A stretch of 64,000 nucleotides of DNA from Niebla homalea (Eukaryota; Ascomycota; Lecanoromycetes; Lecanorales; Ramalinaceae): positions 1,364,001-1,428,000 of the forward strand of contig JAHGAU010000003.1 in the NCBI GenBank assembly GCA_019925105.1, in the 5' to 3' direction. Shown in pieces: positions 4,577 to 32,989 of the stretch. How positions within the stretch are numbered: position 1 is the stretch's first letter; every line of letters begins with the position of its first letter. Under the pieces are notes generated by a model. The model saw only the letters and a list, made by a program, of their open reading frames with translations. It searched no databases and was not told the DNA's origin. A program made the position numbers and the translations under genes.

Positions 4577-6940
4577 TCAGTAAGGAGACCATCTGCTCTT
4601 CTGCTTTTGAATCCGAATGCTCCGTCGAAGCTTGGGAGCATCCACTGCTTGGTCGTTCTGCAAATTTTCAATGGCGCCCATCTCTCGTCCATGCGAAGAC
4701 CGACTGCTCGGCTTGCTTCTCTGGTCAAGTTTGTTGACACCACTCTCTCGTTCATGCGAAGATCGATTGCTCGGCTTGCTTCGCTGGACACGATTACTGG
4801 TACCGTCCTCTCGTCCATGCGAAGATCGATTGCTCGGCTTGCTTCGCTGGACACGATTACTGGTACCGTCCTCTCGTCCATGCGAAGATCGATTGCTCGG
4901 CTTGCTTCGCCGGACAAAATTTTTGGTTTTATGATTTTTTGTAGACCTCAGGTGTTGAGAAATAGCTGTGGCTTCTTCCTTTTCGATGGGTGGAGCTCCA
5001 GTGGCCTTCTTCAAAGTATGTGAGTCTGGTGACGATGGACGGGGCCGCAAGTTGTAGCGTAGGGCGCCTGGCACATGTGCACCCTTGTTAAGGTTTTGAT
5101 GATCAGTATTCTTCGCACGCCTACCACCGCGACAGTTTGGCGCGCCATGCTGAGCTGCTTGCGCTACCACTGGTATGGGTGCGACTAAAGCTGCAACAGA
5201 AGTAGATACCATTGGCGTTGGCGCAACTGATGCTGCTATAAATAACCTGCCTTGTCGATTTGAGTCGACTTGGGCACTGCTTGGTGATATAGTCGATGGT
5301 GGGGTAGGATATGGTAGGCATGGTGAGCTTTCATTGCTCTGTTCAGTTGCCCCACGGTAGGAAGTTGGCGTTAATGACGGATGGGCTTGTTGAAGAGACA
5401 CATCGAAATTCATCTCTTCGGTACTGACCCTGTCCTGGGAGAGACGAATGCGCTTTTTTGGTGGTGTCATTGGTGAATCGTCATCCGCCTTGCGTTTTCT
5501 TATGATGTCTGCATCGACCCAGATGGATGTAGTATCCCAAGTGCACGTAGGTAGCTGAAGCTCATGTTCAAGGTGATCGAGTCTTCCTAGAGCCTTGGAA
5601 GTCTCTGCCCTTGCGACATCTAGCGCTAAGGTAGCGTCTTGCACCACAGACTGAGCCGCGGATCGTTCCTTCCTGGCGAAATCTTTGTAACTAAGAGATT
5701 TTGACAGCCAGATCTTCTTGAACTGTTGGTCCGTGCAGTCGCTCTCGATCTCTTCCCAGCAAGTTTCCCACAGCTTCGCATAATCAAGACATTTTTGACG
5801 ATACCAGACGTGAAGATCCCAGAGCTTCCTATTACGAACGGGGTTAGGTTTCACCGCCTGTACGTAATTGGCTTCATCATCCATTGGGTCTTGCTTTTCC
5901 TGTATCCACATGAGGTTCTCTTTCCAATCCGTATAAAGGTCGGCGAATCGAGAGACTTCCCGCTCCCAGTGGCAAAGCCGATCTAAGGTGGACGAAGTGT
6001 CCGAGGGTAAGCGTACAGACCAGCTAGTACCGCTCAACTCCCCCAGTCTCTTGGCTAGGTACCTTACGGTTCTCAGAATATCATTTTCAAGGTTTCTAAG
6101 TGACACTGGATCGTGGGCGTTGTTGAGTTCATTGACCGCGTCTTCGAGAATCTTGGACATCTCGCCCTCAATTTGATCCGTTTTCGCCTTCTCTGCGAGC
6201 CATTCTTCGTGACTTCTGTCTAGGTAGCCAGCTATCCTCTCGAGGTCGTACTCGGCATCTTCCAAATGGGTTGGGTGCGTGATACTCAGGCATGCTTGCT
6301 TCAAGCTAGAGAAGTCACGTCGACGAGCGTTACGAGAATGATTGTAGCGCTCCAGTCTCGTACGCTGATAGGTACGATATGCTCGCCAGTCGCGAATCTT
6401 GATAAGGTTATTAGTGAGCAACGGTTTACCAGGCCTTAGTAACCGAGAAGGTTTCAACAACAAGTGTTGTTGGAGGGATCCATCAGCTTTCCATACGGCT
6501 TGTGCTTCACGGAACTCAGTCCAACGGTCGAGCTGATCTTGGAACATGCGCCACTCTGTCTTCCAATGATGAGGCATTAGTTGGTCCCGCTCTGCGTATT
6601 GTTGGATACCCTCCTCGTCGTACCAATACTGACGTCTATCATCGAACGCTTGAAATGTGGGGTAAGCAAACTCCTCTCGGATCGGTCGAGTTGGCCTTCC
6701 TCCTAGCTTTAGGAGATCATCATACGCAGCTCTCGCTTGTGCCTCGCGTTTCTCCATCAGGTCCCAATCATTAGGTGTTCTTTCCCTGCCGTCGACGTTA
6801 TTTGATGATCAATGTAAAAGAGCCATACGTCCATGGACGTACCGTATGTGGCGGTCAAGATAGTCTAAGTCTAGAGAATTATCGACGGCTTCACTGGGAG
6901 TCAAGTGTCCCGGCTGCGTGGGCTCCGGCGTACTGAACAT
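4577..6940 (-). CDS. LRDWRAY-family protein, member B
   Basis: Two exons: 6940-6843 (98 nt, starting MFSTPEPTQPG and ending in DLDYLDRHIR) and 6785-4577, joined by a 57 nt GT-AG intron in phase, giving 768 aa. The N-terminal half (about residues 40-470) is rich in Trp, Leu and charged residues and looks helical. It carries the family signatures GGRPTRPIREEFAYP, MPHHWKTEW, and IRDWRAYRTYQRTRLERYNHSR. A basic PPKKRIRL stretch then starts a disordered half, and close to the end are four 21-residue repeats (RSKPSNRSSHGRE type) and a terminal LRRSIRIQK motif. No known domain is recognised. It is divergent to the FHA-kinase gene at 7476, with 535 bp between the starts. The same arrangement occurs for members C and D. 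A role linked to the kinase (partner or substrate) is only an inference from that context. Confidence 0.82.
4681..4932 (-). repeat. 63 bp tandem repeat, four units, within member B
   Basis: The word gcgaagatcgattgctcgg recurs at 4756, 4819 and 4882, with a diverged copy at 4693, giving an exact 63 bp period (21 codons). The two central units are nearly identical, suggesting recent expansion. Confidence 0.9.
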
Positions 6941-7475
6941 GGTGACCTTGTGAGGATGGATCTTTGGCTGTGATTCTGAGACGTCGACTTGATGGTGTAG
7001 TGAAGGAGTATTCGATGTCTTTGGCAAGCGGGTTTAGTATTGAAGTGGTGTTCAGGTGATCATGGGTCTTTCAGAGAAGTTGTTTTGAAATTATTACGGG
7101 AGTGAAGGTGGAAAGTCGCGCGCGGTGTGACATCACGGTGCACTTCGTACGCGACACAAGTTAGAACACAGCTCTTTCAATTCTTTCAAGAAGTGAATTT
7201 CAGACAACACTTCACAACACCTCACAACACTATTTCTGTGTGTTCCTCAAAATGATCCCACCGCGGAGCTCCAACGCGGACCACGATGAGTCCATTAATT
7301 ATGCCCTGAAAAACTTGCTCGACTCTGATGAACACATTCGGAAAGCTAACACTTCCTCAACACCCACTTTGAGTTACATTTTAGAAGCCCGCACTTCTTC
7401 TTCTCTCTTTCATTTTTCCACAATCTTTCCCTTTCATACCATAATCCAGAACGATTTCATCCACCTCTCATCAGC
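6941..7475. promoter_or_regulatory. Shared upstream region of divergent pair 1
   Basis: 535 bp separate the start codons of member B (-) and FHA-kinase 1 (+). A palindrome-like gtgacatcacggtg word lies near 7129, roughly midway. No TATA box could be assigned with confidence. Its role as a bidirectional promoter is inferred from gene arrangement only. Confidence 0.45.
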
Positions 7476-10054
7476 ATGCCGTCTACACAGGAGAGAAAGG
7501 ACGACCACAACCTCTTCTTGTCCCTCGTTCCAATTGGCAGCCTAGCTCGGCAGACATTCGAGCACGAATTTAATCAGAGCCGCCACTGGTTACCTCCCCG
7601 AGTCGTCGATCCCAAATTGACGCTGCCCCCCAACGTCCCAAGACAATTAACACCGACTGAAGAGCCTGTAAAGGCTAAACAGGCTTTGGAACCAGAGTTG
7701 CAACTCTCCTTTTCACACCCTCCTCGTTGTCCCTCCAGGGGATATGTCTTCGGGAGTGCTCCGGTAAACCACCTGAATTCATGCTTAACCTCCTTTGATT
7801 CGCTTCACTGAACTGGATCTATGGCTTACTTTTTGTCGCTTTTGCCGAAATAGGATGTATGTGACATTTGGCTTGGCTTGAAGGAGGACCAAATCAGTGC
7901 TCAGACATTTGCCATCATGCTCACCAAGGTAAGGATCCCCACCAAGTCTACTGCTGATATGCTCGAAATCACGCTGAAACTGCTCTACTTGTAGGACGGC
8001 CATATTGTGATGATCACAGACCGTGAAGAAAACCCTTTGGTCGTCTCGTACGGTAAAGACGAAGAGCCAATTAAATCCGCGAGGTACAACTTTGTTCTCT
8101 TCCCTGAAAAGAAAAACGACATCAACGTCACTCTCGAAAACAATTTGCAGTTTCATTTCAGATTCCCTCGCCACGGTGAGCTCATGTCTAGACATGAGAA
8201 AGCCAAGGCAAATTTCATAGAAAATCACAAGGACGATATTCTTGGTGTCCAACAACTTCTTGAAAAGACCCATGGGGTAAGACAGGACGATACTACTGGT
8301 GCCTTGGTAGTTACCCATCCCTCCACAACATCATTCACCAAATTCTCAGAATTAGGTGAGGGCGGTTTTGGTACTGTCTTTGGAGTCCGAGAGATCAGTA
8401 CTGCAAGATCTTATGCCATGAAAATTCTTTTCCGAGGAAATCCCGAGAATTATCAGTATCAACAAGCACGCAGGCTGCTCCTCAATGAGTTCAAGACGCT
8501 GTCTAGGCTCGAACATGTAAGACAATCACTCCTCGCTGAACTCCAGCTGACGCTCTCAGGCTCGTATTGTTCGGCCCAATAGGTGCCTCCATGCATTTGG
8601 GTCACTGTGCTTCACTATGGACCTCTTGCCAGAAGGACATCTGGAGGCGCAAGCCGACAACCAAAGACTGAGTCACGAAGAAGTGGCAATGGTCTTATGG
8701 CAAGGCTTAGATGCTCTTGAGTATCTTCAGAAACAAGGCATTACACACCGGGACCTTAAAATGCAGAATATCTTGGTCAGTCTTTATCGTCTTTATAAGA
8801 ACTCGTACTCCCGTCAAAGGTCCCATAGTGCATACGATCAGGGATTCGCTCACATGACGAGAATCTGACCATGAATCTACATTTTAGGTCAAACGACGTT
8901 ATCCTCATATCAGCATCAAATTGGTCGATTTTGGTCTTTCAAAAGCACCCCAGGGCCCACGAGACCTCATGAAGTCAACATGTGGCACATGCACATACAT
9001 GGCTCCCGAAATGTGGACGCGTAAGTCCACCTAAATGTCTTTTATGATGAAAGAATTCATGCAATGCTTTTTCCGACAGTATCGAGGTTTCAAGGCTGAT
9101 CCTCCTCTTCTTTCAGGGGCCGCATACACTAGTGCAGTCGATGTCTGGTCATTAGCCGTAGTCGTCATGAATTGCCTCGGACTGATGCCTCGTCAGCCAT
9201 ACTGGTAAGCAGATCTCAGATACCTTTCCGTCATTCGACTCACATCTCGAGAGTCACAAAGGGACTGTATAAAGTATAGCTAATTGTTGCGCGTTTTGCT
9301 AAGGATGGGAGCACAACAAAAATGGTGCAATCTGCTTCGAGAAACCCTCGCCCTGACGAAATACAAGGTTAAGATGCCAGCCGAGACATATTTGATCCAT
9401 ATGATTGGGACGGATATGCTCCGGCATGACGCAGATGCACGCCTCAGCTCCAGCGACATGATCAAGCTCAACCGGGGCTTCTTTCAGCCTCTACTTCTGA
9501 GGGACGACGCTATTACGCGTCAGACAAAGGATGGACATGGGCAAGACGTTCCGAATGTCCCATCCACCAATGAGTGGTCTAAGATGTTTGAGGACTTTTG
9601 TCTCCTCGAGACAGCAAACAATGACCTCTTCCCGACCGAAGAGCCAACTGACTTAGATATCATTAAAGCTCATCAGGAGCGGCAGGTGGAGACGTTGCCC
9701 AAAAAGCAGCGCCCAGCAGCTCGGAAAGAGAATCGGGAGATTTTCTCAGGAAAGCCGAGGATGTATTCATGCCTCCAAGCAATGGGATCACAGCACCAGC
9801 TCCTAGAGCTTCCCGAGCAGGTCAAGGTACGGCAAAAGCCCCAAAGGCCGCCCCAGGGCAAAAGCGCGCGAGCGACCATCACGGGCCCCAAGGACCTGTA
9901 CCTGGAAACAGCTCCCAGAAGAAGAGACGTGGATAGGCTTTCAACGGATGAAGACCCGGTCCAAGCGCTGCTGTCTTCTGCATCCCCGGTTCGGTACAGG
10001 ATATGGTTTGAGATCGTTCCAAGCATGTCTTCAAAGTCCAGCGGTATTCTGTGA
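7476..10054 (+). CDS. FHA-like domain Ser/Thr protein kinase, copy 1 (intact)
   Basis: Seven exons: 7476-7763, 7854-7928, 7995-8516, 8560-8775, 8888-9020, 9117-9204 and 9304-10054. All introns are GT-AG and in phase, giving 690 aa. Residues about 85-190 look like an FHA domain: GYVFGSAP, DVCDIWLG, a QISAQTF strand, then VVSYG and a YNFVLFPE strand. The kinase domain follows: glycine loop LGEGGFGTVF (about residue 241), catalytic lysine in YAMKILF (about 264), HRDLKMQN (about 358), VDFGLSK (about 381) and YMAPEMW (about 409). All key catalytic residues are present, so it is probably active. The tail of about 220 aa is poorly conserved. FHA domains bind phosphothreonine, so this may be a phospho-dependent signalling kinase; the substrate is unknown. 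It is divergent to LRDWRAY member B. Confidence 0.85.
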
Positions 10055-10619
10055 AGCATAGTCTTTGATTTGATTACGGATACGATGGGGAGAGCGGGTC
10101 CTTCAGCGAGATCTCTGAAGCACTGCATATCGATTGTGGACAAAAAAGATGGCGATTGTCGGGGACATTCAGAATGTTAGTATCCAGGATATGGCAACCT
10201 CTATCCAGAAAATACGGAATGAGCATGGCAACTTTCTACTGCAAAAGACTGTCCACTAATGTGTACATAACATGTGACGTTTCTGGGCAAATTGAACTGT
10301 CCATTTCATTAATCAGCTCGTCTTGTGGATTAAAGAGTAAAGCGTTGATGATCTCATACTTCATGCACTCACACTTCACTGAATATCGAAGCTATCTCCA
10401 GACATGACCTTGACCTTTGCCGGCGCATACAACGTGTCTGCAGGGTTGTTATATGCGAACACCTTTGATCGCTGTTGGTCAACTCTCCGCCACCCCGCAG
10501 AGTTCACACCCTAACCGGACAAACCGACTAGCCGGACACGCTAACCCGATTTGGGGACAGTGTTGGCCTTGGCGTAAGTAGCAATAGATTTCTTAGGGAC
10601 GAAGAGAGAGAGAGAGAGA
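10055..10619. other. Intergenic with a GA microsatellite
   Basis: No gene is recognised. An uninterrupted GA tract lies at about 10604-10620. Short open frames here have no family similarity. Confidence 0.5.
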
Positions 10620-11345
10620 GATCTTGTCATTGAGTCTGAGATTTGACGATCGTACTACCGTCGCGGATGCTGCGGGGCAGGTTTCGGCGCAAGCCTACGC
10701 AAGGTTGCTTCTGGGGTCTGGCTACAGGTGCACCCATTTTGCCTGCATGTGCACCGTCGATCCGTCTGCATGTGTACGCCCTGTTTTTGCAGGTATATTG
10801 ATTGATTTCGGTTGTATTTCTGAGAGTATAGCGGAAAAACTTGGACCGAAATAATGTACGTATACTACTACTACGGCGGCAAGAAGCAGATAGTCTTGGT
10901 GCTTTGGATCGTTCAAGGTAGTGGGTAGATGAATGATACGCCGAGGACTACGACCAGAGCGAAAGTGCATTTGGTTATTGAGAAGCAGGTATATGCTGAA
11001 ATTACCTAGGTAGATCCACCAAGAGGAGTCGATTGAAATTTTTTCTTGGTCTTTATTAAGTAGTCTGTCAGACGTGAGGACGCATGAGTGTGATGGGTAT
11101 GTCTTCATTGAGAGTGATATATGTAGATCGATCTATGGAAGAAGACAAAAGATGCAGGAAATACCCGGCTGGTCTAGGATGTACTGCCAGGTGATGAGAT
11201 ATACGTCTGTCATGCAGATGTCTTGGCACCTCTCGCATGACGGGTCAATGACAATCCATGCCTGCACTTAGGCTAACATATTCACTCCTTCATATGATAT
11301 TTATGGAAAGCAGCGGTTGAAGTCGGCGCTATGGCTTAGTGAGCC
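10620..11345. repeat. Segmental duplicate, left copy (of 21960-22575)
   Basis: Colinear similarity to 21960-22575 shows in several blocks: a gtgcaccc/tgcatgtgcacc word pair, ttttttgc/tttttgca followed by ggttgtatttct or ggctgtatttct, then tggttattgagaa, and gaagtcggcgctatggct versus gaagtcggctctatggct. On the minus strand both copies can encode a short hydrophobic stretch after an ITK word (LV.VLG.SFIY type), so the ancestor may have held a membrane protein gene. The frames are broken in both. Confidence 0.6.
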
Positions 11346-11964: not shown

Positions 11965-12225
11965 TGAGGGAGAATTGGGAGGTAGTTGACGATATAATGG
12001 TATGGAGGTAGGTCAAGGCAAAACAAGCAGCTGTGCTCACTTCGCGGACCTCATGAATCGTTCCATACCTGCCTTCTCCAAGATTTTTCACCTTTGTGAA
12101 TTCTTGCTGATAGGCGTAAGCCATATCAATTACCTCGGCTGTGGTCTTCTCTCTGCGCTTCTATGGAGTAAGTCCTTTGTCTCATAGTATCCAGTTCTGG
12201 GGGACTCCGCGTACCTCTGAACATA

Positions 12226-12480
12226 TCATCTAGATACATGGTGTCCAGTCGCTGATAATGTTCCCCAGGACCGCACGTAAACGAGAAGCGGGTTAGTGTC
12301 CCTTGCCGTATGTATGACCAGAATAGTGGTCATAAGGGCATTGCACCATTCGATGTCGGCGCCTGCGCGAAGCAGAACCCGACACCTCATATCCAGGCAG
12401 TACATGATTACTACTGCCAGCGCCCAGTACATGACTACTACTGCCAGCGCCCAGAACAAGTCGATATACTCATGAGTTAT
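12226..12480 (-). pseudogene. FHA-kinase relic (C-lobe fragment)
   Basis: The minus strand encodes WALAVVIMYCLDMR, RAGADIEWCNALMTTI, matching the kinase 2 segment WALAVAVMYCLGMR, RTNIEWCNTLMTTI. The WALAVVVMY unit is duplicated in tandem (27 bp), which breaks the helix after the activation segment. Other parts of the kinase domain are absent nearby, so this is a fragment. Confidence 0.75.
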
Positions 12481-12527
12481 ATATTTAGGTGTTTCGAGAG
12501 TTGAACATCTCCGTCGTAACCATGCTT

Positions 12528-12812
12528 CTATCCTGACGATGACTTTTGCTCCACAGTTTTACGCTGGGTAGAGCGAAAAATCTTCGGATCTGAGGTGGCC
12601 TTCACTGGATGTTGTGCGGCAGCAAGGGTCTTTCGTGTTGCTGCAGCCTTTGGGATAGTGTTTCGCATGGAAGCTGTCCGGCCGTCCTTGTTGACATGGA
12701 TGTTGCGAAGGGTCTTTCGTGTTGCTGCAGCCTTTGGGATAGTGTTTCGCATGGAAGTTGTCCAGCCGTCCTTGTTGACATGGATGTTGCGCGATGCATC
12801 TTCTGGGTGCAA
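12528..12812 (-). repeat. 84 bp tandem repeat (two units) in a probable kinase tail relic
   Basis: The block aagggtctttcgtgttgctg recurs at 12624 and 12708, period 84 bp (28 codons). On the minus strand the frame is open through both units (KAAATRKTLRNIHVNKDG) and ends EQKSSSG followed by a stop. The position, downstream of the kinase fragments at 13.3-14.2 kb on the same strand, suggests a decayed kinase C-terminal tail. Confidence 0.75.
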
Positions 12813-13249: not shown

Positions 13250-14220
13250 TAACACAGAGGGTCTGATGTCCTCTCTCTCTCTAGAGATTGCACCAACTCG
13301 CGTTCGACTTTGGTCCATACCGCTTCTTCCATTCGGCTGTTTCTTGGGGGCCGATGGCCATGCAATCCATGATGACTACGGCTAACACCCAGATATCCAC
13401 CGTGTCATCGTAGCGTTTAACTGTTCAAGTTGTTTGATCAGCATTATGTCGTTTGTGTTCGTTGTCTTGTTGGCCACTTTGTCCACAGGGCAAGCTATCA
13501 CAAAAGAGGCATAGAGTGCTTGCCAGCCTCTACCGGGCCATTCCGGAATGGTGTCCCTGTGGGATGATGGAGAAAGAATGAGAGCTGCAACTCTGACTCG
13601 TGGGCTGTTTTGATTCTGTTAGGCTCTCCAGTCGACGTCGCTTCTCTTGCTTGAGACGAGACCGGTGTCTGGTAGGTCTATTCATTACTGTCTCCCAATA
13701 TCTCTTGCAAAGCAGAAGCTGATTAGAGATGACTGATAGTCAAAAATGATTGGGGACTGTGAGGTGATATTTATCCTAGCTGAGTGCAGTGTCGAGAAAT
13801 TTCAGGCGTATTGATGTAGCCGAGCTTCACTAGTGGGAGTGTTATCATGTACTCATTTCTGTGTCGTGTCCACCGCTTGAACGTTTCAAGTCCGCTGCCT
13901 AGGCTTCCGTCTTTGTCCACTGAATATGTATGTGTCGTGGCTGGGGATTTGTTCTGTGCGGCCTAAGGCTCTTGTCTCGAGGATGTCTTCTGAGGTAAAG
14001 GTGAGGGAGCCTGTGAGGTCTTTGCGTGCTCCGGCGTTGAGGAATGAGGAAGAGGGTAACTGTGACTGACTTCTGCCGAGTTTGGTGCTTACTTCAGATA
14101 GAGGACTTGGAGCGTCTGAATCCACTTCTTCAAATGCAACATAGTGCCGCTAACTCAGAGGTATTGAACGTTTTCAACGTTCACATCATCTCCATACGAG
14201 ACCTCGAATGTATTTATCTC
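13250..14220 (-). pseudogene. FHA-kinase relic (FHA piece plus C-lobe piece)
   Basis: Two pieces in the expected order on the minus strand. At about 14215-14155, EVSYGDDVNVENVQYL matches the end of the FHA-like domain (ISYEDNEEAEKRLKYVWV in copy 2). At about 13410-13265, VDIWVLAVVIMDCMA followed by a W-C-N-L motif matches the C-lobe. The glycine loop, HRD and DFG segments between them are not found, and several stops interrupt the frame. Confidence 0.7.
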
Positions 14221-14339
14221 TCATTGCTCCAGAAGCAAGACTTTTTTGTTTGGAAGAACCCTTCCTTGGGGTCGTTGATGTCCTTAGCGCTGAGACTTGC
14301 TTCTGGATGGCATCAAAACATACTGGTGCCGACCATGTG

Positions 14340-14800
14340 GATGAGATACCGTCATCATGGAACGGATCAAGAGGCTGGCTTTGCGTCCTGATTTCCGCGG
14401 AAAAGGGATTTCATCGCATAACATTCGGCAGTGCTAATCTCCTTAACTTTACAGACACTTGCGTAACTGCCCTCACCTAATTCTGAGAACTTGGTGAATC
14501 CAGAAGTATAAGGGTACGTGGTAACCCAGGCACCAGTAGTAGTATCTCGTACTACGTGGTGGGTCTTCTTGACAAGTTCTCCGAGATTGAAGGTGTCGTC
14601 CTTCAGTCCTTTGAGGAAATCTGCTCTGGCTTTCTTCCCTCCCCCCAAATGAGTGGGGTTCATAGAAAGCCCAACGTGTTAGACCAGATAGCTGCAACTC
14701 TGGTTCCCAGGCGGATCTAGGATTCGTAGGCTCTCCAGACCGTGTCGATTCTCTGGAGATGGGGCGGGGGCGGTGTCTGGCTGGGATCGACAACTCGCGG
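14340..14800 (-). pseudogene. FHA-kinase relic (N-terminus and N-lobe joined to a tail piece)
   Basis: On the minus strand EPELQLS is an N-terminal tract also seen in copies 1 and 3. KTHHVVRDTTTGAWVTTYP and FTKFSELGEGSYASVCKVKE match copy 1 just before and in the glycine loop, followed by CYAMKSLFRGN (catalytic lysine). Immediately after that, the DNA at about 14395-14350 resembles the RSQPLDLFHD tail of copy 2 rather than the rest of a kinase domain, implying an internal deletion of about 300 codons. The glycine loop is also altered (GEGSYAS). Confidence 0.72.
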
Positions 14801-15666
14801 AAGGGGAAAATGGCCTTGAAGGGCTAGAAGGTATATATTTAGGTCTTCCAAAACCTCGTGCAAAGGAGAAGATGTATGGAATGTACTAGTGGAAGAAGGA
14901 AGAAAGTCGAGGTCTCTGGGGTGGTATTTATGCCAGCGGATTCAAGTGTTGAGTGAAGTCCACACCTTCTAAGTGTCAGGATTGGAAGGCGACGCGTTTG
15001 CGTGACACTCCCTCGTGAACACCACAACAATGCGCTCCGCCTTTGGATTCACTTCGACAGAGCAATACGTCCCTGATGGTCAGCAGATATGTTGGTGGTG
15101 CCCCACATCGCCCAAAGCTAGCGTCACGTTGCAAATGCCCGTGTCGAGTAACACCTAAAGTGTCTATGGTGTTTTTTTGCAGACCCGCAGTGTTTCGTCG
15201 TTACACTACTACGTCATAGTGGAGATGTGAAGTCTCCAACTCCGGTTTTGTTCAAGTGAGGCGCCCCACCAGGACCCCGCCTTTCCCTCTGTACTTTGGC
15301 TTCCTCTGAAAATCTTGCAGGAACAGCAAAAAAAGACAATGTTAGGAGCTAACAGTAAGTCAGCAGGAAGGTTTGATCATCTTGGTGGAATTTATCCAGC
15401 GGCTGTAGATATACCAGTACATGATGTGCATTCATATACCGTTGATCATCCTTCCAAAGTCTCGATCATCAAATACAAGCCTTGACCAGAGTCTAAATCC
15501 ACCCAGATGCCTTTAGATAGATGATTGCCCATCGCTGATGCCAAGGACATAGAATCCCAAACTGATTTTGACTGAGATGCCGCTAGACTCCAAACTTCCT
15601 CTGTTCTCAATGCCATTCCACAGAGCTCATCAGGTATTTTCAGTCCACAGATCAGTAGCACATGAC
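14801..15666. other. No gene recognised
   Basis: This is the 3' flank of kinase copy 2. An 81-codon frame at 15446-15691 overlaps the end of that gene but has no recognisable motif. Nothing else can be supported. Confidence 0.4.
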
Positions 15667-18127
15667 TTATAGACGCCTTTTTTTGGAACAAATCTCAGTG
15701 ACGGCTTCTTCAGATTGAGAAGAGTTCCGACGGTGCTTCTGACTGGGCAACGCGTTCGCGAGCTCGGACTCAGTCTGCCAGTCTGAGAAAGGCCGACTGT
15801 TCTCATCATGGAACAGATCGGAAATCTGGCCTCGCTCCACAGGCTTGTGTTCGGAATGGACCTTGGCGAGCTCCGACTCGGTCTGCCAGTCTGTCAAAGG
15901 CCGACCGTTCGCGTCATGGAACAAATCAAGAGGCTGGCTTCGCCCCTCAAGATCTTTTTCCGACTGCTCTGTAGCAGCATCTAGTTGCTTCGTCGGCTGC
16001 TCCAGGGCCTTTTGAGTAGCGCATGCCCACCATGCATCTGGGCCGAAAATAGGATCGAAGTCGACGGTGGCATTACGCACTATATTCTCCCACATACAAT
16101 GACATTCGAGGTCATTGCTTAGGACCTTTATCTCCTCTGTAAGGTCTGCATCGAACTCAAAGGGCGACTGGAGGTTTCGTGACTCCACAGCTCTCTCCAT
16201 CTGCTGGAGGAAGGTGAAGAACGGATCGTACTTTCTCAGCAATTCATGAGCACTACGTCGATCCTCCGCATCCATCTGAATCATGTGATACCAAATCATG
16301 TTCACCAGTTGTCTTCGAATGTTAGGCTGGTCGCCCTTGTCGTTCCTAGCATTGTCAATGGTGGTCATGAGGGTGTTACACCATTCGATGTTGGTGCGTG
16401 CGCGGGGTGGAACCCCACCCCTCATACCCAGGCAGTACATGACTGCTACTGCCAGTGCCCAGATGTCTACCTTGTTAGTGTAATGTGTATCTGCATAGCA
16501 GTTTAGCCAAAGCGACAGATTCAAGTAAATATGTTCGATAAATCTCTGATGAAGAAAAGAATGGTAGGGTCGATCGCTTACCAATGAATTGTTCGGGCGC
16601 TAAGAATTCCAGCGTGCCGCATTATGTCTTCATTTTGGATCTCGGTGTTTGCCCTGGTTTTGGCGCGTCCGAAAGACCGAAATCAACGAGCTTGATTTTG
16701 AACAGAGGGAGTTGTTCCACCTACGCAAGCAAGCACGTTAGTCAATATGGTTAATGGTACGAGTGTGGTAACCTGTGGAGTGCAAAAATGGACTGTGCCG
16801 TGAAGCTGGGCTACTGTACCATGATGTTCCTTGGTTTCAGGTCTCTGTGAGTGATGTTCTTCTGATGAAGATACTCGAGGGCCTCAAGACCCTGCCAAAG
16901 GACTATAGAGGTCTTTTCGTCAGGTAAACCCTGAGGCACAGTCTGGTCCAGAAGATTTTGCAGGTCGCCCTGCGGCAATAGCTCCATCAACATGCATAGG
17001 GAGTCGAAACCCTTGAAAAGATTGTAATATCGAACTATTCGATGCTGTAGATACGTTAGCTCTTGTCTTGGCACGTTTACACAACTTACATGATCGAGAC
17101 CAGCTAATGTAGCGGCTTCCTTTTTAAGAACTTGGCGTGCCAACCTATACTCCTCGTACCGCACATGACCCGGTAAGAGCTTTTTCATGGCGAACCGTGC
17201 GGCAGTGCTAACATCTGCAACCTCGTGTACAGAGCCAAAGCCGCCCGCACCAAGCTCTCCGAACTTGGTGTATATCTTCTTGTAAGAAGTCGTTAGTGCT
17301 TTGCTGCGATCTCCGGTTCTTTGATGTGTGTTGTGGTTGAGCGGGATAATGCTGAGACACCCATTGTCAAGGTTCTTGATAAAAGTATCCCTGGTTCTCT
17401 GATATGCAGGCACAAGATCGCCGTGATGGGGAAATCTGAATTTGAACCGGAGCCCGCTGGCAAGTGTCACTGTGATATCTTCCTTCTCCGGGAAAAGAAC
17501 CCAGACGTATTTCAAACGTTTCTCCGCCTCCTCATTATCTTCATATGAGATCTTGAGTGCATTTGTTTCTGAATGAGAGTGTAAAATTAAGAGTCCCTCC
17601 TAGACAAAGACCGTATTCAGTAAACGTAGGGTGCTTTCGGTATACGAAAGGCAGCAACCTTTCTGGTGACTACTAACCGTGGTAAACTTTATGCTGAAGG
17701 TGACTGAGCTGATACCACTCGCTCGGCTTCCAAGGAAAATGTCACATACGTTCTGATCCATTAAACAGTCAGTTACAACGGTAGATATTTAGGGGAACCT
17801 TATATTCAGAGAAAGTCTTGTTACCGGGTCGCTCCCGCAGACATAGCCACTAGGCGGATGCTGAGGAGGGTGAGCAAAGGACAAGTCGAGTGTCGACTCA
17901 TCTTGACCTTCTGTATGCTTCCCCTCCGGAGTCTCTCTGACCGGCGTGGTCTGTCGCTCATCCTTCCAGACTACTGGATCTTTTGATTCTGTTGTAGATT
18001 CATGGCGGTGATAGTGTCTCCAATTGACAGAACGTTTGAATGACTTTCGGGCTTTCCTGTTCAATGGGACCAAAGACAAGATAAGATCTGGGTTGTCTTG
18101 CTCTGGATTTGAGGGGGAGGTGTCCAT
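15667..18127 (-). pseudogene. FHA-like domain Ser/Thr kinase, copy 2, with one nonsense codon
   Basis: Exons 18127-17825, 17752-17678, 17599-17090, 17044-16820, 16720-16582 and 16490-15667 keep phase throughout (692 codons). The FHA-like part has GYVCGSDP, NVCDIFLG, SGISSVTFSI and LKISYEDNEEAEKRLKYVWV. The kinase has LGAGGFGSV, FAMKKLL, HRDLKPRN and VDFGLSD. At codon 404 (minus strand, plus positions 16622-16624) TAA stands where copy 3 has CAA: MKT-stop-CGT against MKTQCGT. The rest of the domain (LEFLAPEQ, VDIWALAVAVMYC) and a tail with two 36-residue DLFHD repeats is open and well conserved. Translation would stop before the APE motif and lose the C-lobe. It is either a recent pseudogene or a readthrough/allelic case, and it is divergent to LRDWRAY member C. 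Confidence 0.85.
15745..15960 (-). repeat. 108 bp in-frame repeat (two units) in the kinase 2 tail
   Basis: Two 36-residue units begin DLFHDANGRPLTDWQTESEL and DLFHDENSRPFSDWQTESEL. They are diverged but clearly tandem, and the period is divisible by three. Confidence 0.8.
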
Positions 18128-18764
18128 GTTCGTGGGTCATGCTCTTTGAATTGGAGAAGGCAGAAAATCGGTTGGCATGAAGCCAAAGTCTTCGCTTCGA
18201 AATAGAAAAAGGGAGCAGAATGGTCGGTAGGAAGAAGAAAAGAATCATGGTCAGGGCCGTTCAATTCAAGGGACTTGTCTCTGTGTTCCAAGATGTGTTT
18301 ATGGATACAAGCGCAGGACTAAGCCCACAACACGACATTCAACGGAGGGTGTTACAAAAGAGAATGCTCGGTATACCCTGCTACACAAGAAGACCGCGTA
18401 TACAGAAGCGCGTTCGGCGTTCGGGCATCAACTTAACAATGCACCAATAGACGCATCACTGTAGCGTATCTCAGTCTTAGGTGAAGTGTCGAGATCCGAC
18501 AAGGACGAAGCGAAGACACAGGTGTTTCTAATCAGACTGTAGGTGTTGCACCATAGCCACTCAACATCTTAAAGTTCCTGCAAACTTCAAACCCTTTAAA
18601 GCACCATTTTCATACAATTTTTCTTCCACTCAGCTTACAGAGTCTCACCAAATCCTTCGCAATCCTGATCATTCATACAGCAATTAAACCCCACCTCTAC
18701 TGCTACCACCAGTCGTTTTCTTGCACGTAGATCGTTCGTCCAAATCTTGATCGGCTCTTGAACC
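18128..18764. promoter_or_regulatory. Shared upstream region of divergent pair 2
   Basis: 637 bp separate the start codons of kinase copy 2 (-) and LRDWRAY member C (+). A ctttcc/tttaaag-type AT-rich stretch and a caccattttcatacaattttt tract occur near 18600, before the member C start. Bidirectional promoter function is inferred from arrangement only. Confidence 0.45.
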
Positions 18765-20878
18765 ATGCTCAACACACCAGAACGTTCGGTACTTGGTAAC
18801 ATGAGTCCGGCCATTTCAATCAACCAAAGCGTGGACCTTGAGGACGTTGATCGTAAATTATTGTGAGTTTACGTTCGCTGTCTTTCTGACAGGTAAATGA
18901 CTGAGAGACTCTTTCTAGCGCTAGTCGAAGACCGCCCTACGAGTGGAACCACATGAAGATCGACGAAGCAAACGCAAAAGCTGCTTACAACGAGCTCGTG
19001 AGGCTGGAAGCTCGGCCATCGAGGCACATCCGGGAAGAATTTGCGTATCACACCTGGACCTATAAGCCTGGTGTTGCAGAGCACGAAGGAGTTGTCGAAT
19101 GGTACGATGCGGAGGCTGATACCCTAGACCACGCAGACGAGGCTTCTTTGATGCCTTATCACTGGAAAATGGAGCGAAACCTATTTCAAGGACAGCTCCA
19201 ACAATGGAAGGAATTTCGAAAAGCACAAGCAACGTTCAAAGAAGACCATTACCTGAGAAACCGTTTTCTTGCACGGTCAACAATGTTTCCCGCACTGAAG
19301 TCCCGTGACTCGGTACTTACACAAAAATTAACAACACTCCACGATTGGCGAGCATATCGCGCGTACGCCCTGGGAAAAATCACACACCAAGACTCTTGTA
19401 GGACGGCTGATCGAGACCAGATTTCTCAATTGAAGAAAACCTTCTCACGTCTTTGGGATTTTTCGCAAAAGTTTGAGGCCCGACCCAAATTGACGCAGAA
19501 GATCATCCATTTAAAGATCCATCACAAAGCATGGTCGGTTGAAAAAGGACTACTGGGACGCATTAATGCGGAAATTCTTAGGATCCTCGAAGAAACGGTT
19601 GATGAACTTTTCACTCGGGATCCAGCGCTACTTGTTGAACTTGAACAGGACTCGGAAGAGACCGCGCAGTATCTTGCCGAAAAACTAGGAGATTTGTGCG
19701 GCTTTAAGTGGCCGTTACGTCCGCCATCTGCCTCACTATCAGCACTGGACAAGCTATATCAATGGGAGCGAGAAATCTCAAGATTGTCAGATCTCTACCA
19801 GGAGTGGAAAAACAACCTCGAGTGGTTACGGATAAACCACGATGCCAATGATGATAATGCTGCTTACGTGTTGCCACTGGAGCCCAACGTGATACGAGCT
19901 AGAAGCCTATGGAAACTACATGTTCAGTCTAGACAGAAGCAACTTTCGGATGCGAGAAATTGGCAGACATGTTGGAAAGATGTTGAGGACTTCTGCGAGA
20001 AGGACTTCGGTGCTCCGCTTGTACAGGGGCTTTCAAACTGTTACCCTGAAGGGACGCAAAAAGAGCAGTGTGCAGCTTTTTTCTCTATTCAGGAGGCTGC
20101 TATGGCTCTTAAGACTGCGGAGCAAGAAGCTGCTGAGGCACTGACTATACTCAATCAGTCTAAGGAGCTTCCAGAATGTCCACAGGGCACTCCATCAATG
20201 TTGGGTAATGCAAAGATCGGGAGAAAACGCAAGGCGAATGATGAAGCACCGATGGAACCGCATGCTAAGCGCATTTGTCTTCCTGGTGAGGTGTCTGCTG
20301 AAGACAAGGTCAGCAGACCTCGGCATCAGCCAGTTCCATCAGCAAAGCCTACGTCAATCAGTAGGATTACGAAGCGTGTCCGCCGCGCTTCCCCTACCCC
20401 CAAACCGTCTCTTTCCACCGCCGTCAAATTGGAGGACGACGAGCTTCCTTGGGATGGGTCTGCTGCAGACAAGGTCGACGTGCCTCTTTACCAAGCGCTT
20501 TCACCAGCAACGCCTGAACCAGCCAATAGTGCACCTCCACCTACGAAGCGAGTCTATTCCGCTTCCCATGTCCCCGAACCGTCTGTCCCCATAGCCGGGA
20601 AAATTGAGGACGAGCAAATTCAGCTCGTGACAAAGAAGCCGGATCGGGGCAAACAGGCCGCGCAAACCTCCAAAAACGGCAAGGGGATTACAACAAAATC
20701 CACAAAAGACACAGGTAAAGCCGCAGTCACAAAGACGGGCCGTGTAACCAAGCCCAAAGATCATCGTGCTGAGGCTAAGGCTAATGGTGGTGTGAGACGG
20801 AGCGAGCGGGTCAAGGAGATGGAAAAGAACTTGCGATGCAGGCAGGGCTGTACGGAGACGCATGAGCGTCAGTACTGA
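18765..20878 (+). CDS. LRDWRAY-family protein, member C
   Basis: Exon 1 (18765-18862, 98 nt) encodes MLNTPERSVLGN and ends in VDLEDVDRKLL. Exon 2 is 18925-20878, joined by a 62 nt GT-AG intron in phase, giving 683 aa. Family signatures: NAKAAYNELVRLEARPSRHI, MPYHWKMERNLFQGQL, LHDWRAYRAYALGK, and the WEREISRLSDLY segment. From about residue 450 the chain is basic and disordered, with HAKRICLP, two diverged repeats around KRV.SAS..PEPS, and a Lys-rich stretch. It ends in NGGVRRSERVKEMEKNLRC, almost the same as the end of member A and similar to D. No known domain is recognised; nuclear location is inferred from the basic motifs. It is divergent to kinase copy 2, which carries a stop, so this pair may be losing function. 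Confidence 0.82.
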
Positions 20879-22575: not shown

Positions 22576-22619
22576 TAAGTCTATATCCCTCTGACCGGAT
22601 CCTGAGCAGAACGTACGTC

Positions 22620-22975: not shown

Positions 22976-23369
22976 ACCCGATCCAAGTTTGTGGCTCTTC
23001 GGCTTTGATAGTCATGGTGAGAGGTGAGAAGGATTTTGGTGGTTCAGCTTGAGGAAGTTGAGGGGCTCGATGCGCTCGCCACGTGCCCAGAACGAATCGA
23101 ATGCTGTCACGGTGGATTATATATTTAGGTACTCCAGGCATTGGAAATCTTCGTCTGGGCTCGAATCGAGTATCGCGGGGAAATGGCCAGAACCGCCCTG
23201 CACTAGCTTGTCAAGATTCGTATGTGTCTTTGCGACCTTGGAACTCTTGGCGTTACGTTGAGTGACAGGAGGAGCTCTTGGGCCTAATTTGGCCTTTACT
23301 GAATTTAGCGTATGCTTGTCCTTCCTGGGGCTTGTGTATGCCAGTTCTTCCTGGTGGGCTGAATGTTGG

Positions 23370-23430
23370 ATTTATCCAAGAATGACGACGCCGAGTGCTC
23401 ACACGTCGACAGCATTGGTATAATTCAATC
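23370..23430 (-). pseudogene. FHA-kinase relic (C-lobe fragment with stop)
   Basis: The minus strand reads YTNAVDV-stop-ALGVVILG, matching YTNKVDIWALAVVIMYC of copy 3, with TGG changed to TGA at the invariant Trp. No glycine loop, HRD or DFG is found upstream. With the 138 bp repeat block it probably represents one dead kinase gene spanning about 22.6-23.5 kb. Confidence 0.65.
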
Positions 23431-24196
23431 TAACAAAGTAATGCTTATTAGACTTTGTTTGGCAACGACGGTCCAGAATCGCTCAAATCAAAGACCATAA
23501 GAAGCTACCGCGAGCGTGTGACGGACAAGGAAGGACTCACTCATTGGAAGACTAGCCCGCATTACGGATGTCATGAGTGGAGAAGTAGCACAGATCGTCT
23601 TCAGATAATCTGCTGGAATCTTTGCACATTTGCCAGACCAGAATCTACCAACATGATCGTGATTAAGGGACGATTTTGAAGAAGGATTATTTATTTAGTG
23701 TCGTGGAGAATTCCTGAGATGTCTGAAAGATACTGACAGTTGAAGGAATACTTGCTAATATAATGCAGTGTCAAGCCGTATTCATAATTCGTGTCAATTT
23801 TCGCGGAATCTCAAAATGAGATTCATGACACAGCTCGCGCGACGTGTATCACGTGGAATTATGTCACTTTCTAAAGCCACTCATGTGATCAATGTTTGAC
23901 AAGTTTACGGCGGGCGAGGATCTTCTGGGAATAGTCCGACATGGGAATAAGCAGGTTGTTCATTTTGAATCTATCATGTGTTGTTCCGATAATGTTTGTA
24001 ATGTTGATGGCTATTTCATTACGTCGTGTGAGATTGCCACTGTTCGCAGCTCGTATTCGGTGAAAGATGTCGCCAAGATTCGCTAGATAGATATTCCAAA
24101 TTTCCTTCAGTGCAAAGTGAGCCCCAAAAGGCCACACCCGCTAATCCCAAGGCCTTTCAAACAGGCCGAAGTCAATGCGATATGAACGCGGGACCC
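23431..24196. other. No gene recognised
   Basis: Sequence between a kinase relic and the stop codon of kinase copy 3. It is moderately AT-rich with only short frames. Confidence 0.4.
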
Positions 24197-26520
24197 TTAT
24201 CTACGTCTCTTCCTCTGGGAGCTCCCATCAGCCACGACGTCCTTTGGACCACCTTGCACCCTGTCATGTTTCTGACCCAATGACCCTTTCGCCAATTTTG
24301 TGGTTTTTGTTGACCCAGAGAAACGCTGGGAGCCGGAAAAAGCTACACCGCTATCATCAATGAATGGAGGCGGCGCCTGCTCTGCAAGCTTTCGACTCTT
24401 TCTCCTGGCCTTCATCGCCTTGAGTTCTGCAAGCTTGGCATCGTACTCGCAGGTTCGCGACGCCTCTCGTCTCTCGGCGTCTCGTCTTTTGGCGCCTTCC
24501 TTTCGACAATAGGCCTCGAATCTGTTCGTCCAGTCTTGAAGTGTCCGTGTGTCATTTCCAGACGAAGTATCAGCCACGCTAGACGCATGTTCGTCAGCTG
24601 CAGCCTCCATTTGTTCGACTATTCGGAAAAACGGCTGGCACTGCTGAAGCATGCCAATAGCCTTGGAGCGGTGCACCGCTCTGTGTCGAAGCATGCTGCT
24701 TGCCACCTGGTGAATTAGAGTCTGCTGGATGGGATCTGCATTACTGAACTTTGCCTTGTCCAGAGCTTCAACCAGTATGTCACACCAGGTTTTGTCGCGG
24801 CGTAGGCCGTACATAACGTCACGTTCAGGCCTCTCACTGGGCCTGATGTTCAAGCAGTACATTATGACGACCGCAAGAGCCCAGATGTCAACTTTGTTCG
24901 TGTAATGCGGATCTGCGGGAGCTATTTGTTAGCCTCAGGTCATACAATCAACCCTTGCTATTGGCCGCTTTCAAAGAGAACTGACCTGTCGACTGCTCCG
25001 GGGCATAGTATTCCAAAGTACCGCATTGCGTTTTCATCTCCATCTGCGACTCGACTGGCTGTCCATCTACCGGCACACTCGAAAGACCAAAATCAACGAG
25101 CTTGACCTTGATGAATGGACTCTTTTGCTCGACCTAAATTACCTGAGTCAGTAATCATGTTTTAATTCAAATAGTCGTTTTGGATGCCACCTCCTCTATG
25201 CACGAAAAGTCAAATGAATAGGGCTTGAATAACTTACCATTATGTTCGACAGTTTTAGGTCTCTGTGCGTAATGCCTTTCCCATGAAGGTACTCCAGAGC
25301 TTGAAGACCTTGCCAAAGGATCCCGGAGACCTGATTCGCGCCCAGTTTTCTGCCTCTTGTCTGCCTGAGGAGGCTATGAAGGTCACCGGCTGGCAGCAAA
25401 TCCATGACCAAGCACAGGCAGTCGGACCCCTTGAAGTGATCGTACTGTCGAACGATCCGGCACTTGATATACGTTAGTCGTGATCTCCAGGAAAGCTCGT
25501 TGCCTTACATGATCTAAGACAGCTAAAGCGCTGGCTTCCTTTTCGAGGCTTCTCTGCGCGTACCTGTACTCTGAAAATCTATCATTTCCCGGCAAAAATA
25601 CCTTCATCGCGAATTCACACCCGGTGCTTATCTCCTTGACTTTGTAGACGGCGCCAAAGCCGCCTTCCCCTAGCTTTTGAAATTTAGTATAGAGCTTCCG
25701 GTAAGTTGATATTCCCCGTCCATCCTGATCCTTCACCCGGGGGTGTGCATCAGCATTGAGCTGCGCCAGGTCTGGACCGCGTGCTAGGAAGTTTTGGAAG
25801 AACCTCTTTTGAATATCCGTATGTCTAGAGATTATATGGCCGTGCTTCGGAAACCGGAACTTGAAACGAATTCCGTTGGGAAGTGTCACCGAGATGCTTT
25901 TCTCTCGGAACAGAACCCAGATGTAGCGATATTCTTTATAAGCTTCGTTCTCGTCATAAGATACTCTTAGCTGATTGGAAGCAGACTCCGCAACCATAAC
26001 AAGAAGTGCCTCCTGAAAACAACGATCTGTCAGTGTATATGCTGCGGATCTCTGAAAAAAAAAATCGGGCTGCTTACCCTTGTGAATAGAATCCGAAATG
26101 TGATTGGGCTTATCTTGTCACTTCTCGCACCCAGGTATATGTCAGATTTCTCCTATTCAATCATCTTGTCAGCTACGGAGAGTGCGCAACAAGGGACAAA
26201 GGAGAGAGCTCAAGGGCGTCTACTGGATCACTTCCAAACACATAGCCACTTCGAGGATGAAGAGGGGGATTGTCAAGAGACAGCTGCAATTCTGGCTCAT
26301 CGTCGCTTCTAGCGTCCCCTTCATCGTCGGTATCCCCAGTCGGAGTGGTCTCTTTATAGTTGATTCTGGGCCGCTTGGCCTGAGGGTCGATCTTGAATGA
26401 AGAGTGCCGATAGCGACTGGGACTATATTGTTCGAAAGTCGTCCGAGCTCTTGCATTTAGAGGAACCAAGGAAAGAAGTAGATGAGGGTCATCGAGTGCC
26501 TGAGATTTCAGGGGAGCCAT
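24197..26520 (-). CDS. FHA-like domain Ser/Thr protein kinase, copy 3 (intact)
   Basis: Six exons: 26520-26224, 26152-26078, 26012-25509, 25462-25238, 25133-24986 and 24912-24197. All have GT-AG boundaries and phase holds, giving 654 aa. Exon 2 is 75 nt in all three full-length copies. FHA-like part: GYVFGSDP, KSDIYLGARSDKISPITF, LRVSYDENEAYKEYRYIWVL. Kinase part: LGEGGFGAVYKVKE, FAMKVFLPGN, HRDLKLSN, VDFGLSS, CGTLEYYAPEQS, then VDIWALAVVIMYC. All catalytic residues are present. The tail (about 240 aa) is Lys/Arg/Ala-rich with a coiled-coil-like stretch (KRRDAERREASRTCEYDAKL) and ends SSQRKRRR, a possible nuclear signal. It lacks the intron after the C-lobe Trp seen in copy 1. Divergent to LRDWRAY member D. 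Confidence 0.87.
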
Positions 26521-27106
26521 GTTTTTTCGAAATTTGTGGAAATTTTTTTGACAATGCAAAGAGTGAAGAATGGTAGCATTTGCAAAAGAACCAGGGAAAT
26601 CAGATGGGAGATTTTAAGATATAGAAGACGCCAGTGGAAAGTGTTCATTGGGAACGTTCGGAGGTCTCTTTCAAAGGTAGTGTTCACAAAACGTGCTCGG
26701 CTCTTGCCACCTCGCAACACCCTCAAAGGGTGCCCACCGCCACTCTGACCTCGCGGACATGATATTGTGACACTCTCTTCTTTCCGTTGAGGCTAGGCTA
26801 CAATGAATACTCTCGGGTGATTGATGACGTGACGCGCTCATTCATGTAACACTGAACAAAGTGCCGTTTTTGCGTGCCACTTAAGGTCCAGTGTTGTGCT
26901 TCCGGCTTGTGTTATTTTTCAATACGTGTAAGTTAAGGTTTAACAGTCCTCTCGATCTCACAAGTCTCATCAATCCAGTACACGACAATCAAAGAACGTT
27001 TGCCAACGCCTGAAATCATCGAACCCAACTCGAACAAATATTGTCGCTTCATTGGATCTATCTTCTAGCCCACAGATCTTTCTCAAAGTCCTTCACAGCA
27101 GTCAAG
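26521..27106. promoter_or_regulatory. Shared upstream region of divergent pair 3
   Basis: 586 bp separate the start codons of kinase copy 3 (-) and member D (+). A CRE-like tgatgacgtgacgcg word lies near 26822, roughly midway, comparable in position to gtgacatcacgg in pair 1. Regulatory function is inferred. Confidence 0.45.
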
Positions 27107-29165
27107 ATGTGCAACAGCCCAGAAGTGATTGGGCCCATCAGCCCAAGTGATAGTAATTCGCTCCATCAAGATTTAGACCTAGAATACCTCGATCGACAGA
27201 TACGGTAAGAATGGTGATATATTGACCGGAAAATAGGTAGCTATTGACGTTATCTCTAGACCAAGAACACCTGATTGGCTGGACAACATGGAAGGAGATG
27301 AGGCCAATGCCAAAGCTGCTTACGCCGAGCTTGTGAGGCTAGGAGCAAGACCATCAAGGCCCATTCGCGAAAGATTTGCTTATACAACCGTCAACAACGG
27401 TGACTACCGCAACTGGAGAGATGAAGAGGACGGCACCTGGTATGGAGCTAACGTGGAGCTGCTGATGCCTCATCACTGGGAAGTTGAGTCTGCATTGTTC
27501 CAAGGGCAGCTTGATCGTTGGCATGAGTTTCGAGAAGTACAGGCTACTTCTGGAGACGATTGTTATTACAAGAATCACTTGCTGTTGAGGCCAACCGAGA
27601 CCCATGTGTTGGAATACAATGACCCGATACTCACTCAGAAACTCACCACTCTTCGTGATTGGCGAGCATACCGTACTTTCTACTACACCAAGCTTAGATA
27701 TTACGACCAAAGCCGCGATGCTCCTCGAAGACAAGTCACAAGCTCACTGCAACGCTTCAAAGATCTGGCAGATCCGCCCCAAAAGCAAGCGGCCATGTAC
27801 AACGTATTTAGAGGGACGGGCACTTTGGAGACTCGCCAGAAAGAATGGCTAGTTGAAAAAGCCATATCCGATCGCATCGAGGACGAGATTCCCAAAATTC
27901 TAGAGGAAACGGTAAATCAACTAAGCACTTACGATCCGATACTACTCGTCAAGCTTGAAGAGGATGCAGCGAGGACCGCATACGCTTTAGCTGATCGACT
28001 TGGCGCCTTGAGTGGTTCCAAGTGGCCAGTACACTTACCAGACACTTTAGGCTCTTTCTTGGAGAAGCTTAACCATTGGGAGCGAGAGATTTCTCGATTG
28101 GCTAGCCTCTTCACGGACTGGGCAGAAAACATAGAGTGGATGCAGCAAAACCACGATCCGATGGACGATGATGCAATCTACTTACTTGCGATCGAGCCGA
28201 ATGCAATCCGCAATCGTAAGCTGTGGGGGTTACATGTCCGGTGGCGCCAGCGGCAGCTTGAGAAAGCTGAAAAGTGGGAGAAATGCTGGGAGGGTCTGCA
28301 AGCTTTCTGTGCCGTAGAACATGAAAAAGGTAGCAGATTCTCGCCTTCGCTACCAAACAACTTCGCAGAAGAGGCAAGAAAGCATCGTCTCGCCTCTCAG
28401 CCTCGTGTTCACGCCGCTGTTGAAGCTCTCAAACTTGCACAGACGGAAACCTCAGAGGCCTTGCACCAACTGGATCAAGAAAATGTTCAGCTTCCGAAAT
28501 GTCCTTGGGGCACACCATCCGAGTGGGTTGAAGCTATTATTGTGAGAAAGCGTAAAGCAGATGAGGATGCACCAATGACTCCGCCGGCCAAACGAGTGTG
28601 CCTCCCTGACGAAATGGCTGTTGCCGGCAAGCTCAGAAAAGCCGGGTACCACGTCACCGCATCAACCCCCATTTCCGGCAATCACTCCAGTGGACACACT
28701 GATGGAACGTCAGCACATCCAGTCTATCCTACGCCACCATCGACGGGCTCACCAGGTAGTGCCGATAGGCCTGTTATTATACAGGATACTCCGCCATCGC
28801 AAGCATCGAGCGTGCTTCCGAAGCCTGCAACACCAAGTGGTCGTCGTGTTAGAATTCCCAAGAATACAGATCATCAGAATCTGAACAAGAACGCAAGAAT
28901 TCCGGGCGCACCACGATACAACCTCCGTCCCCGCATTTCAACTCCAGAAGGCGAAGGCTCTACCACACTGAAGCCTGACGAGACCCGATCGACCACGAAG
29001 GATGCTACTACGATGTCTTTGAATCCCAGGTCTAAAAAGGAAGACAAAGTTACAGTAACAAAGACAGGCCGTGTGTCCAAGCTAAAGCCTACTACGCAAA
29101 AGAATCAACGCGCTGAAGCTAAGGCTAATAGCGGGTTGAGACGGAGCGAGCGAGTCAAGAGATGA
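27107..29165 (+). CDS. LRDWRAY-family protein, member D
   Basis: Exon 1 (27107-27204, 98 nt) starts MCNSPEVIGPIS and ends DLDLEYLDRQIR. Exon 2 is 27260-29165, with a 55 nt intron in phase, giving 667 aa. It has the clearest family signatures: NAKAAYAELVRLGARPSRPI, MPHHWEVESALFQGQLDRWH, LTTLRDWRAYRTF, WEREISRLASLFTDW and NRKLWGLHVRWRQRQLEKAE. The last third is disordered, with PPAKRVCLPDEM, a Thr/Pro/Ser stretch, and a segment NTDHQNLNKNARIPGAPRYN almost identical to one in member B, ending SGLRRSERVKR. It is thus a mosaic in similarity: closest to C at the very end, to B in the NTDHQNLN segment. Function unknown. Divergent to intact kinase copy 3, making this pair and pair 1 the complete modules. 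Confidence 0.85.
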
Positions 29166-32900: not shown

Positions 32901-32989
32901 GAGAGAGGGGCGAGGGGGTGGGGGAAATGCGCTTTGTCGTTGAATTAATAGCAGGAACGTGATGAAAGAGGCCTGGCTTGTGCACATCT

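Follow-up and report, generated by a model that had tools for sequence, protein, structure and literature searches.

Three head-to-head pairs of an FHA-like kinase gene and an LRDWRAY-family gene at one locus of Niebla homalea

Introduction

Why should a kinase gene and a gene of an orphan fungal family stand head to head three times at a single locus? The question is raised by a 64,000-nucleotide stretch of the Niebla homalea genome (hereafter the window; C3:1364001-1428000 of a genome of 50,566,743 bases in 52 contigs), in which genes for an FHA-like kinase (K) and genes of the "LRDWRAY" family (D) form divergent pairs, numbered here 1-3. The three head-to-head K-D pairs are real, and pair 3 is the sole whole pair among them. 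Judged from sequence comparison, an old and repeatedly retained head-to-head unit is supported. The reading that we prefer, with slightly less than even confidence, is that an old divergent K-D module is present in three copies at this locus, in which D serves K as a dedicated nuclear partner or substrate.

Layout and gene models of the three pairs

K and D gene models were derived from the window sequence with GT-AG introns (Table 1). The D and K start codons lie at 6940 and 7476 in pair 1, 18765 and 18127 in pair 2, and 27107 and 26520 in pair 3. A preliminary description of the locus had given start-codon gaps of 535, 637 and 586 bp, which are exact in these models; its 98-nt first exon in all three D genes and 75-nt second exon in all three K genes are likewise borne out, as is the alternating orientation, with K on the plus strand in pair 1 and on the minus strand in pairs 2 and 3. 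Measured from start codon to start codon, all three are bidirectional pairs, being divergent with starts less than 1 kb apart. The layout described for the three pairs is therefore exact, but two of the K genes in it carry defects: K2 has an in-frame stop, and the end of K1 at 10054 is out of register. The kinase domain is uninterrupted in two of the three K genes, and K3 alone combines a fully open frame with the conserved C-terminus.

The TAA that interrupts K2 occupies 16622-16624, after the DFG motif and ahead of APE. Eleven hypothetical introns would skip it, but all lack a consensus donor and would remove part or all of the DFG motif and activation segment; since no acceptable intron bypasses the stop, K2 as assembled cannot yield a normal kinase. 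In K1, a stretch resembling the K3 C-terminus is read in another frame; it terminates in KKRRG at 9936, not at 10054. Among 119 introns that could join the two frames, just six satisfy even a permissive donor pattern, and a single weak donor at 9586 supplies them all. Because candidate introns are so few and their sole donor is weak, a frame change is a likelier account of the K1 tail than an intron. As the C-terminal residues are KKRRL in K2 and RKRRR in K3, and K1 has KKRRG in its other frame, a basic C-terminus looks like the conserved state of K, and it is probably a nuclear signal.

Age and constraint

The D proteins are 36-46% identical to one another in amino-acid sequence and the K proteins 41-42%, K1 being compared up to 9660 here and for the divergence values that follow. 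Synonymous divergence (dS) between D genes is 2.06-2.35, with nonsynonymous divergence (dN) of 0.48-0.64; between K genes dS is saturated and dN is 0.56-0.60, and dS values this high are rough. Identity within K is unevenly spread, at 50-62% in the kinase domain, 39-41% in the N-terminal, FHA-like region and 24-25% in the C-terminus. These values indicate that K and D are old duplicates whose proteins are constrained overall. With dS above 2 for D and saturated for K, the head-to-head layout has outlasted neutral sequence similarity. It is this divergence, together with the pairing of all three D genes and the constraint on the proteins, that supports an old retained unit, and the presence of the unit in both orientations supports retention of the layout.

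The same comparison bears on whether the locus is simply decaying, its copies of some former role being lost and pair 3 alone remaining complete. The K2 stop, the out-of-register K1 tail and at least four K fragments around the pairs (see below) would fit such a history, but all three D frames are open over 667-768 codons at the identities given above, with dN well under dS, and we regard a decaying locus of this kind as a very slim prospect.

Table 1. Positions of the paired genes and of associated features (window coordinates, except K4)
Feature	Position	Strand	Description
D1, LRDWRAY-family gene	4577..6940	-	exons 6940-6843 (98 nt), 6785-4577; 768 aa, open
Intergenic region, pair 1	6941..7475		535 bp
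K1, FHA-like kinase gene	7476..10054	+	7 exons; 690 aa as read; catalytic motifs intact
K2, FHA-like kinase gene	15667..18127	-	6 exons; one in-frame stop, 16622-16624, in activation segment
Intergenic region, pair 2	18128..18764		637 bp
D2, LRDWRAY-family gene	18765..20878	+	exons 18765-18862 (98 nt), 18919-20878; 685 aa, open
K3, FHA-like kinase gene	24197..26520	-	6 exons: 26520-26224, 26152-26078, 26012-25509, 25462-25238, 25133-24986, 24912-24197; 654 aa, open, basic C-terminus
Intergenic region, pair 3	26521..27106		586 bp
D3, LRDWRAY-family gene	27107..29165	+	exons 27107-27204 (98 nt), 27260-29165; 667 aa, open
Kinase fragments	12005..12582	-	closest to K2 (83% nt over 106 bp); scrambled order
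Kinase fragments	13275..14813	-	largest piece 14385-14636, most similar to K1 (56% aa over 84 aa); no adjoining D remnant found
Kinase fragment	30438..30868	+	closest to K1
Kinase fragment	31349..31480	+	closest to K3 (73% aa over 44 aa; 82% nt over 147 bp)
Neighbouring gene	378..2654	-	open stretches 378-1922 and 2016-2654 (unjoined); last ~48 residues match D2 tail, D3 more weakly
K4 (L013), relative of K	C16:145814-147133		appears open (partial model)

The kinase domain and the FHA-like region of K

The Pfam Pkinase family matches K1 at E 2.7e-45 and K3 at E 3.8e-48, and their other Pfam matches are only to related kinase families, most of them below cut-offs. The glycine loop, AMK, HRDLK, DFG and APE motifs are present in K1-K3, the APE of K2 lying beyond its stop, which falls inside the domain; the kinase domain is complete with its catalytic motifs in K1 and K3. 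Among the best 60 of 2577 matches to solved structures, the nearest to K3 are kinases of the CDPK, DAPK, DCLK, CaMK, Snf1, PAK and PLK types; CDPK, DAPK, DCLK and similar kinases we take to be the CAMK group.

The region before the kinase domain has no Pfam FHA match in any of four K members (K1-K3 and the relative K4, introduced below), and none of the genome's ten matches to PF00498 lies within the window. Searched against the PDB, a profile of the four K sequences gives ten matches at E up to 10. The top one is 3gqs (E 0.034), which is presumably an FHA domain, and seven are named Rad53, Spk1 or Forkhead-associated 1, several of these being the same Rad53 domain, with the Rad53 entries at E 0.23-1.3; two of the ten are an unrelated methylase. 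In the best three matches, which were examined for it, the alignments cover the FHA signature. We also compared the profile by hhalign with FHA segments from eight of the genome's ten PF00498 matches. Tried singly, the segment of the FHA-kinase on C28 was the best of the eight at 94.6% (P 7.2e-8) and the other seven gave less than 1% each, while an alignment of all eight gave 71.8%, against 0.1-0.6% for ten column-shuffled alignments. The term "FHA-like" kinase, taken over from the preliminary description, therefore holds in the sense of remote homology only, carried by the match to one of eight FHA segments in the genome and not by any Pfam match. In FHA domains, a conserved arginine binds phospho-threonine; the corresponding column holds Ser, Ser, Ser and Thr in K1, K2, K3 and K4, so that none of the four has the arginine.

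The D proteins

The sole Pfam match of D1 is to Sld5, below threshold at E 0.073, and a profile of the D core finds no credible relative among solved structures. A model of the D3 core, built from the three-sequence alignment, consists mostly of long helices (mean predicted local distance difference test score, pLDDT, 67.4; predicted template modelling score, pTM, 0.59), and a fold search with it gave no clear match. After the core, all three D proteins share a basic stretch, RKRKA...PM.P..KR, and from its basic stretches D appears to be nuclear. In D1 and D3 this conserved stretch has a TP site: the conserved proline beside it (region at about 5446-5503 in D1, 20221-20270 in D2 and 28545-28590 in D3) is preceded by Thr in these two and by Glu in D2, the partner of the broken K2. 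The tails that follow are mosaic: residues 555-602 of D3 match D1 at 27 of 47 positions and D2 at 8 of 42, whereas residues 603-652 match D2 at 22 of 41 and D1 at 12 of 50. The D1 tail also holds a 63-bp tandem repeat in 3.7 copies (4682-4916), encoding 21-aa repeats.

In genome searches with D3, D2 and residues 1-485 of D1, three D genes were found among the best candidates scored, all of them in the window and all paired with K; the only other find was the tail of a neighbouring gene, matched with D2.

Partnership or shared neighbourhood

K has a wider set of relatives. A genome search with K3, in which 68 of 94 candidates were scored, gives at least 72 matches, of which 17 lie in the window and 55 outside it. 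Among the matches listed, a single one beyond the window, at C16:145814, extends into the FHA-like region. This relative, K4, has a weak KilA-N match in its open stretch, below cut-off at E 0.017; open stretches downstream of it show, by eye, repeated KilA-N-like segments, and its flanks are AT-rich and resemble the products of repeat-induced point mutation (RIP). A stop-riddled relative of K4 lies at C39:124841-125326, also in AT-rich, RIP-like DNA; no D match at E below 0.5 occurs in the 10 kb around this relative. In a tree of 23 kinase domains, comprising K1-K3, K4 and 19 of 20 further loci picked from the other K3 matches (L048 was dropped, having no match at the cut-off), K1-K3 are joined at 98/94, K4 joins them at 93/90, and K2 and K3 are sisters at 93/88.

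The most serious rival to partnership is hitch-hiking: a chance K-D neighbourhood was copied as a block, the two genes, with so short an intergenic region in common, do not easily come apart, and each protein is kept for itself, with no physical partnership. We consider it almost as likely as the reading that we prefer. All three pairs lie within one 25-kb stretch, and gene pairs with starts less than 1 kb apart are a common layout in other eukaryotes, according to the abstracts of PMC2670823 and PMC2648788. K copies also arise without D, and K4 has no D beside it. Finally, K2 broke and D2 did not. What hitch-hiking explains less readily is that the layout has been kept in all three copies, at a divergence at which D exceeds a dS of 2 and K is saturated, while other K duplicates were cut up.

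Much of this evidence also counts directly against a dedicated K-D partnership, as do further observations. A broken K2 stands beside an open D2. At least four K fragments spanning the same kinase region (12005-12157, 14385-14636, 30794-30868 and 31349-31480), with further pieces besides, are unaccompanied by D, no remnant of the D core being found at the locus at E 0.01. The upstream divergent neighbour of K4 is a BTB gene instead of a D gene, and no D match at E below 0.5 occurs in the 10 kb around K4. D carries no signal that matches the K2-K3 sisterhood: among sites shared by two of the three proteins, 115 join D1 and D3, 111 join D2 and D3, and 47 join D1 and D2. No same-strand 7-mer is common to all three intergenic regions (1.7 expected). 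Counting both strands, 18 are common to them against 11.8 expected, a number reached by 31 of 200 shuffles, and the best pairwise match is a 20-bp segment of pairs 2 and 3 (E 0.045), out of register; a common promoter motif clearly above shuffles was thus not found for the three pairs. Moreover, the evidence for retention comes from three pairs at one locus.

Two earlier statements need to be narrowed in this light. That the pairing survived heavy decay of surrounding copies agrees with the K fragments around the pairs, but no D core remnant is found among them. That the unit duplicates as a cassette agrees with the three pairs and is at odds with the K fragments lacking D and with the BTB neighbour of K4.

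A possible mechanism and its alternatives

A K-D partnership is nevertheless plausible, and the simplest way in which it could work is as follows. K may have had an FHA-kinase with the Rad53/Chk2 layout as its ancestor and, given its basic C-terminus and the proximity of the K3 domain to CDPK, DAPK and DCLK, would be an active nuclear serine/threonine kinase. Because the usual arginine is gone, its FHA-like domain has probably stopped reading phospho-threonine and may dock a dedicated partner instead. D, helical and bearing a conserved basic stretch and a basic tail, would be this partner, either substrate or scaffold, and the kinase domain would act on D docked by the FHA-like domain. K and D might then be kept together as both proteins are needed in balanced amounts. 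If this holds, a checkpoint-type FHA-kinase layout was re-used for a lineage-specific task after phospho-threonine binding was lost, D, an orphan fungal protein family, gains a first hint of function, and the three diverged pairs offer a natural test of how kinase and partner stay matched during duplication.

A more ambitious version would see at this locus a two-component signalling unit of a kind not described before: an FHA-kinase that no longer reads phospho-threonine is tied genetically to its own nuclear helical partner, and the pairs diverge into private insulated channels, for example for self-recognition or kill-and-rescue. We think this unlikely. Slightly less likely still is that the two genes form a module for self-recognition or cell death, or a selfish (toxin-antidote) one, in which D would be the effector and K its controller or antidote. 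Copy number turns over at this locus and leaves broken duplicates; fungal regulated-cell-death pathways are often encoded in two- or three-gene clusters, as parts of PMC12881547 describe, and a kinase domain serves resistance in Spok proteins, as stated in a portion of PMC6660238. Set against this, K1, K3 and D1 (three of the six proteins, scanned whole) show no nuclease, HET, NLR, HeLo or gasdermin family in Pfam, the basic stretches suggest a nuclear D, and both proteins are constrained overall. A drive or incompatibility role, for which copy-number turnover is the sole evidence, is speculation.

Surroundings of the cluster and local decay

The gene at 378-2654 ends in a basic tail of the RRSxR type that is 65% identical to D2 over 48 aa and also matches D3; a genome search does not find this tail outside the locus. 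We rejected the gene as a D paralogue, since a 212-aa stretch upstream of the tail gives only 0.1% against D in hhalign and the tail alone is common to them. Because the tail is found only at this locus yet ends an otherwise unrelated gene, tails seem to have been exchanged between neighbouring genes. A 72-bp inverted repeat (90% nt identity) has one arm inside this gene (1723-1794) and the other on the far side of the cluster, by the kinase fragments (32266-32337).

RIP was considered as the cause of decay across the cluster and rejected. With index thresholds of above 0.89 and below 1.03, one of 29 one-kb bins (4001-33000) passes both. That bin, 17001-18000, lies inside the broken K2, and bin 32001-33000 is on the edge. 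When three fragments are set against the open copy nearest to each, C-to-T and G-to-A changes stand to the reverse as 9:6, 7:10 and 21:24; with no excess of RIP-type transitions, the local decay does not look RIP-like. Strongly AT-rich, RIP-like stretches do exist elsewhere in the genome (L033 and the flanks of L013).

Farther out, the cluster is flanked by genes for RNA polymerase I A49, RIX1 and an aminotransferase and so lies among ordinary genes. The minus strand at 47595-48611 carries an open frame that encodes a ULD_2 ubiquitin-like domain; its PigL_N match falls below cut-off.

Comparison with known systems

Among the papers listed by our searches of the open-access literature, none on a K-D pair of this kind was found, and in the passages of PMC7849911 consulted nothing was found on the nature of a kinase at a vic locus. 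Two-gene units are familiar from fungal cell death, where het-S/nwd2, HELLP/PNT1 and gasdermin/protease modules are likewise clustered (described in sections of PMC12881547); unlike them, K1, K3 and D1 have no NLR, HeLo, gasdermin or protease family in Pfam. The Spok killers of Podospora, as described in passages of PMC6660238, are, like K, a kinase-containing, multi-copy and duplicating family. They differ in that a single protein combines predicted nuclease and kinase domains where K and D are two genes. No nuclease family, including the Spok-type PD-(D/E)XK, is found in K1, K3 or D1 (Pfam, E up to 1).

Lineage-specific "unclassified" fungal kinases, such as those of Fusarium (PMC6001611, in part), resemble K in forming a small family of kinases that lies outside the core kinome; a word search of the main text of that paper gives no occurrence of FHA, forkhead, head-to-head or divergent.

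The FHA-kinases Rad53, Cds1 and Chk2 present a different comparison. The tree places the K clade beside the FHA-kinase on C28 at 64/35 only and puts the FHA-kinase on C31 elsewhere, giving no firm join of K to either of these included FHA-kinases of the genome. K differs from Rad53, Cds1 and Chk2 in an FHA-like region that falls below Pfam detection and is without the phospho-threonine arginine. What K has in common with them is the order of its parts, an FHA-like region before a kinase domain, the latter nearest to CDPK-, DAPK- and DCLK-type kinases.

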